A stretch of DNA of 64,000 nt from Cyanobacterium sp. HL-69 (lineage in GTDB: Bacteria; Cyanobacteriota; Cyanobacteriia; Cyanobacteriales; Cyanobacteriaceae), in NCBI GenBank assembly GCA_002813895.1, contig CP024912.1:868001-932000 (forward strand), read 5' to 3'. Both the position numbers and the translations under genes were made by a program. Below are positions 40,969-41,541 of the stretch, piece after piece. Numbering within the stretch: the stretch's first letter is position 1; each line of letters opens with the position of its first letter. Under the pieces are notes generated by a model. It had not been told where the DNA came from. It was given only the letters and a program-made list of their open reading frames with translations, and made no database searches.

Positions 40969-41346
40969 TTAATGATGATCATGATGGTCATGATTCATAG
41001 GAGCAGATTCTTGTTGTTCAACGTTTAATCTAATCAAACTCATATCCTGTCTTCCATAGCTCATAACGCCCATGGTAACTTGTCCGAGGGCAAAAATTCC
41101 CATAGAAACCAAACCAATGGAAAATACTCCCATGGGTACTAAGCCAATGGAAATTACGCCATGGGGAATAGCACCGATGGAAATTAAACCATGGGGGGAA
41201 ATACCGATGCAAAGTACACCGTCATGGGGGGCAATACCAATTTGAATTAGTTTTTTATTTTTTAGAGTTAGTCTCATGGAGGGCAAAATATATAATATCA
41301 GGATGACCAAAATATATATACCAAGGGTTTTTATGTCAAAAGACAC
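40969..41346 (-). CDS. Membrane-anchored decapeptide-repeat protein with His-rich tail
   Basis: This 125-residue protein has one N-terminal hydrophobic helix (about 8-24), then six tandem ten-residue repeats (about 36-96) of consensus [IL]G-x-x-[PST]-[HM]-G-[VIL]-x-[SAC], such as IGISPHGLIS, IGAIPHGVIS and IGLVPMGVFS; the first has one extra residue. A polar linker follows, ending in NHDHHDHH. The strict period suggests a beta-solenoid rod, and the tail could bind Ni, Zn, Cu or Co. The repeat shows as a 30-bp period in the DNA. GTG start at 41346. Family unknown to me; no metal-transport genes nearby. Confidence 0.7.
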   Translation of the reverse strand: MSFDIKTLGIYILVILILYILPSMRLTLKNKKLIQIGIAPHDGVLCIGISPHGLISIGAIPHGVISIGLVPMGVFSIGLVSMGIFALGQVTMGVMSYGRQDMSLIRLNVEQQESAPMNHDHHDHH

Positions 41347-41541
41347 TCTGTCAAATTTATCTGTCCATAATGAACAAGTGGGGTAATTTAGGGCAGGGAA
41401 TAGGGAATGGTGATACTATCTTGAATACTAAGCTAGTTTAATCATTGAGCTATATTTCACATCATAATTAAGTAGTGGCATTTTTTTTATATGTATAAAT
41501 GAGGAAACCTATAAACAAAAAATCTTTGCAAGAGAAAAAAA

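Follow-up and report, generated by a model that had tools for sequence, protein, structure and literature searches.

In this study, we found that the minus-strand open reading frame 40969-41346 of Cyanobacterium sp. HL-69, which holds a decapeptide repeat, contains a gene of the copper-responsive PetRP regulon. Its membership of this regulon is strongly supported by sequence comparison across cyanobacteria. The reading that we favour, and consider somewhat probable as a whole, is that the gene is the PetRP-regulon orthologue of slr0601 and that its product is a solenoid, which binds Cu(I) and buffers or relays scarce copper. "The window" below means the whole stretch of 64,000 nucleotides that was analysed. 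The plastocyanin/cytochrome c6 switch is a classic case in which an electron carrier with copper is exchanged for one with iron, and the repeat protein is probably a copper-handling part of this swap, because its control site is the same as that of the cytochrome c6 gene, which is used when copper is scarce.

The small Synechocystis PetRP regulon includes two proteins without an assigned function, and the present work addresses one of them. Earlier work had established the family and, for one species, its regulation. To our knowledge, the presence of the operator across the family, the joint occurrence with petR, the petR-petP and petJ neighbourhoods, the corrected start, and the proposal of a Met/His ladder are new, and part of this may already be contained in the original PetRP paper. 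Among cyanobacteria, the family is now linked with a precise operator, with regulator and protease neighbourhoods, and with a Met/His repeat architecture; therefore, its role is directly testable.

Operator and promoter

A 22-bp motif, TTTGACAGAGTGTCTTTTGACA, lies at 41334..41355 on the minus strand and is common to petJ. Whole-genome matches and the upstream regions of relatives mark it as a candidate PetR operator, and we infer that PetR binds it. Within the operator, GTCTTTTGAC is nearly invariant. The 3' end of the operator forms a -35 hexamer, TTGACA (41334..41339, minus strand), which is followed at a distance of 17 nt by a -10 hexamer, TATATT (41311..41316, minus strand). These hexamers match the consensus at 11 of 12 positions, and sigma-70 promoters typically have a spacing of 17 nt. 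In relatives, too, a hexamer that resembles the -10 is present, at 16-19 nt from the -35 hexamer.

Two sites in the 3.3 Mb window genome, and no others, match the motif core, one at the repeat gene and the other 57 nt before petJ, a gene encoding a 111-aa cytochrome c6 with a CAACH motif and a signal peptide. At one mismatch a further match was seen at C1:177496, with no obvious copper-related gene nearby. When one locus per genome was taken, the gene downstream of the motif in 30 motif-bearing loci was most often petJ and in several the repeat gene. The motif (at most 2 mismatches, within 300 nt) was found upstream of 56 of the 83 relatives that lack the strict DUF3721 signature, mostly 70-83 nt before the ATG; some of these loci duplicate one genome, and 49 distinct upstream segments remain, the window included. 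Only 1 of 8,300 shuffled upstream regions and none of 535 control ORFs from these loci had such a match. As the operator has the petJ form, expression of the repeat gene should follow that of cytochrome c6.

No petJ-type operator was found upstream of petE, the plastocyanin gene, where the best match had 6 mismatches. Instead, the inverted repeat TTGAC-N5-GTCAA occupies the -35 position of the petE promoter (L227; G000, C1 near 1294400), and through it PetR might regulate petE in the opposite sense. Elsewhere in cyanobacteria, the operator precedes other genes (L079, L085, L088, L091, L092, L093, and L097), among them those for exported proteins of ~161 aa, a membrane protein with GHCAGMCGP, and another that is PepSY-like. 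This hints that the copper regulon may extend further.

Co-occurrence with petR and petP

The genes of both PetR and PetP, the pair after which the regulon is named, are present in the window genome. Its single gene of the BlaI/CopY type (PF03965, 1e-30) precedes a gene for a membrane metalloprotease with HENAH, which scored above the cut-off for M48 and weakly, below the cut-off, for M56. A gene for a cupredoxin-like lipoprotein is located directly downstream of petR-petP (L032:33-479, minus strand; G000, C1 near 1136000).

The operator of the repeat gene was found only in genomes that carry a BlaI/PetR-type gene. Among the repeat-gene genomes whose locus was read, 22 had both the operator (at most 3 mismatches) and petR, none had the operator without petR, 12 had neither, and 2 (family f43) had a divergent BlaI without the operator. 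Fisher's test gave a p of 7e-8 at the genome level, where lineages are not independent, and 0.08 at the family level, where the counts were 6, 0, 2, and 1. That the repeat gene neighbours petR-petP in three loci and petJ in three others also speaks for its place in the regulon. The picocyanobacterial genomes have no petR, and their copies of the repeat gene have no operator. Many petR-bearing cyanobacteria are without the repeat gene; therefore, the switch does not depend on it.

Relation to Synechocystis slr0601

PMC7896320 and PMC12382314 describe how PetR (BlaI type) and PetP (BlaR type) of Synechocystis regulate petE and petJ according to copper, and give slr0601 and slr0602 as two further members of the regulon. 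In a proteome study, Slr0601 dropped together with PetJ, the cytochrome c6 (PMC12382314).

Two loci of the genus Synechocystis, L124 and L129, have the genes for an NADP-thioredoxin reductase, the repeat protein, and a 138-aa exported protein, and dnaE, in this order. The dnaE of L124 has a split-intein N-part, and the contig of L129 is that of Synechocystis salina LEGE 00031. We take dnaE-N to be slr0603. The gene slr0600 has been reported to encode thioredoxin reductase (PMC4182526, PMC3816324). From this gene order the repeat gene is slr0601 by position, which agreed with the report on the regulon. This identifies the window gene as an orthologue of slr0601, assigned by gene order and not by the PCC 6803 sequence. 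Like the window gene, the Synechocystis repeat gene encodes a small protein and has a petJ-type operator upstream. The loci differ, however, in that the repeat gene of the window genome stands alone, flanked by murJ-like and mutS2-like genes and with no slr0602 neighbour, and a fixed slr0602-like neighbour was not seen outside Synechocystis.

Repeat architecture and fold

An earlier note, made from the letters of the window, had described tandem decapeptides with a 30-bp period in the DNA and an HDHHDHH terminus, and all three hold. The repeat occupies residues 13-75 (41053..41241, minus strand), with Gly spaced by 5 residues and His/Met by 10. Counted from the corrected start, 12 of the 13 Gly fall in one phase modulo 5; none of 100,000 composition shuffles reached 12, the maximum being 10. 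Since the residue that precedes Gly is aliphatic and His/Met by turns, two pentads together make up one repeat (IGxx[PST]-[HM]Gxx[SAC]); the first unit has one residue extra (D19). TRF detected the period of 30 in the DNA, and the repeat is kept across 63 aligned sequences.

In the alignment of 63 rows, several aliphatic repeat positions interchange I, L, V, F, and A. By comparison, every residue at columns 29 and 39 is either Met or His. No residue other than Met occurs at columns 59 and 69, nor at column 49, where 62 rows have Met and one has a gap. A swap between Met and His changes every base of the codon, and the ladder columns showed no residue intermediate between the two. Repeated convergence between Met and His was considered and is not supported; when the swaps were counted on the tree, just one and two changes sufficed, and so the swap is weak as repeated evidence and suggestive only.

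The C-terminus is a His-rich tail, MNHDHHDHH (40972..40998, minus strand), and tails enriched in His/Met are found in the 57 operator-bearing relatives. His makes up 15.9% of their last 30 residues vs 2.3% in controls, and 55 of the 57 have at least 3 His/Met there.

The repeat region matched Pfam GLTT (PF01744) with 63.2 bits against a curated cut-off of 21 (1.5e-17). This match, together with the gene order that leads to the Slr0601 family, supersedes the view of the earlier note that no known family could be assigned. The window protein shares the pentapeptide xGxxx repeat with GLTT, but this Pfam name stands for a short sequence repeat, and the match alone implies neither common ancestry nor shared function. 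DUF3721 (PF12518) had no match in the window protein, the NCBIfam and PHROGs searches gave nothing useful, and a literature search on the GLTT repeat and DUF3721 found no papers. A sequence search of the PDB gave chance matches only, the best one being aligned through an expression His tag.

From 25 rows, AlphaFold2 gave a poor model (pLDDT 45). With 63 rows, the best model had a mean pLDDT of 72.5 and the other four 40-48, and the models disagree with each other. The best model has strands of ~7 residues every ten residues, as would be expected for the short beta-solenoid that had been suggested for this protein, at moderate confidence and in the best of five models only. When the model was compared with solved structures by Foldseek and VIA-align 2, the only matches were weak ones of high rmsd, to left-handed beta-helix enzymes (Z at most 3.6).

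Proposed role in copper handling

Metal binding by the repeat protein had been suggested before for Ni, Zn, or Cu; it is plausible, and from regulation and gene neighbours it may be narrowed to copper. Like petJ, the repeat gene should be expressed under copper scarcity, with PetR stable, and switched off once copper has activated PetP and PetR is degraded. The product would be small, would lack an export signal, and may fold as a beta-solenoid. Its Met/His at every ten residues and its flexible His/Met tail may bind Cu(I), as the conservation of these residues and the regulation of the gene lead us to infer. The protein would buffer or relay scarce copper during the replacement of plastocyanin, and it might set the copper threshold that PetP senses. 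More specifically, the Met/His ladder of the solenoid may form a line of Cu(I) sites in a PetRP-controlled copper buffer or threshold setter. We offer this only tentatively, as less likely than not; the Met of the ladder could be packing residues of the core instead. We know of no description, as such, of a copper-binding beta-solenoid with a Met/His ladder. CopM of Synechocystis is likewise small, linked to copper, and rich in Met/His, but it is an exported helical bundle that is induced by excess copper through CopRS (PMC12292863), whereas the window protein is built of repeats and its gene has an operator of the PetR type.

An operator common to petJ would also fit a protein under PetRP control that serves cytochrome c6 or photosynthetic complexes as an adaptor or assembly factor. 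Its solenoid would then offer a surface for binding other proteins, the conserved Met would be there for packing, and the His/Met tail would be incidental or regulatory. The repeat gene adjoins petJ in three loci (L112, L142, and L143), and Slr0602, the regulon neighbour, was reported to interact with photosynthetic proteins (PMC7896320). However, the frequency of the His/Met tail among the operator-bearing relatives fits metal better, as does the Cys/His/Met-rich DUF3721 at the same end of the picocyanobacterial proteins, and we regard an adaptor as rather unlikely.

In three other loci (L113, L122, and L123), the repeat gene is directly upstream of petR-petP, and the repeat is hydrophobic, with a 19-residue mean of 2.09 at residue 46. 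Both features would suit a membrane-associated modulator of PetP, whose hydrophobic repeat lies on the membrane or the protease and tunes the degradation of PetR with or without metal. Yet Gly at every five residues and the predicted short strands would suit a solenoid over a membrane helix, and a modulator of this kind appears improbable to us.

Start of the coding sequence

The likely start of the coding sequence is the ATG at 41277, which is M24 of the longer frame, as judged from alignments and from stop codons in relatives. The corrected coding sequence of this Slr0601-family repeat protein extends over 41277 to 40969 on the minus strand (40969..41277; 102 aa and a stop). In the relatives from G013 and G007, in-frame stops occur immediately 5' of the Met that matches M24, and from this Met onward they are 84% identical to the window protein. 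Both the 25-row and the 63-row alignments begin at the Met of 41277. No clear Shine-Dalgarno sequence precedes M24; starts without it are common in cyanobacteria.

The frame had been read from a GTG at 41346, with an N-terminal membrane helix. This GTG falls within the operator, and codons 1-23 of that frame (41278..41346, minus strand) take in most of the operator together with the -35 and -10 hexamers. Because of this overlap and the stops in relatives, the supposed helix is most likely untranslated promoter and leader DNA, and the window protein would have no translated N-terminal transmembrane helix to serve as a single-pass anchor. A rod on such an anchor, binding Ni, Zn, or Cu outside the cell, has the open frame and its hydrophobic stretch from the GTG in its favour, but it is rejected on the operator overlap and the stops, as well as on the lack of a comparable helix in the other relatives, and we consider it very improbable.

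Picocyanobacterial and other relatives

The picocyanobacterial GLTT-DUF3721 proteins have the same repeat and Met ladder as the window protein. In most of them, the repeat is followed by DUF3721 (PF12518; two proteins tested) with conserved Cys/His/Met, vs the plain His/Met tail of the window protein. At L140 and L145, the GLTT-DUF3721 gene starts 3-12 bp after the gene of a small DUF3721-like protein that is exported and has an end rich in His, and a Fur-family gene is near the loci L135, L140, and L145.

In the endosymbiont of the diatom Epithemia turgida (L144, L160, and L103), the repeat gene is frameshifted near its start, and L103 has an orphan operator with no petJ nearby. The relatives of the repeat gene in other Epithemia/Rhopalodia endosymbionts are intact. 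Crocosphaera MAGs (L184, L197, and L208) encode a second repeat protein of 81 aa, without an upstream operator match, which looks like a paralogue.
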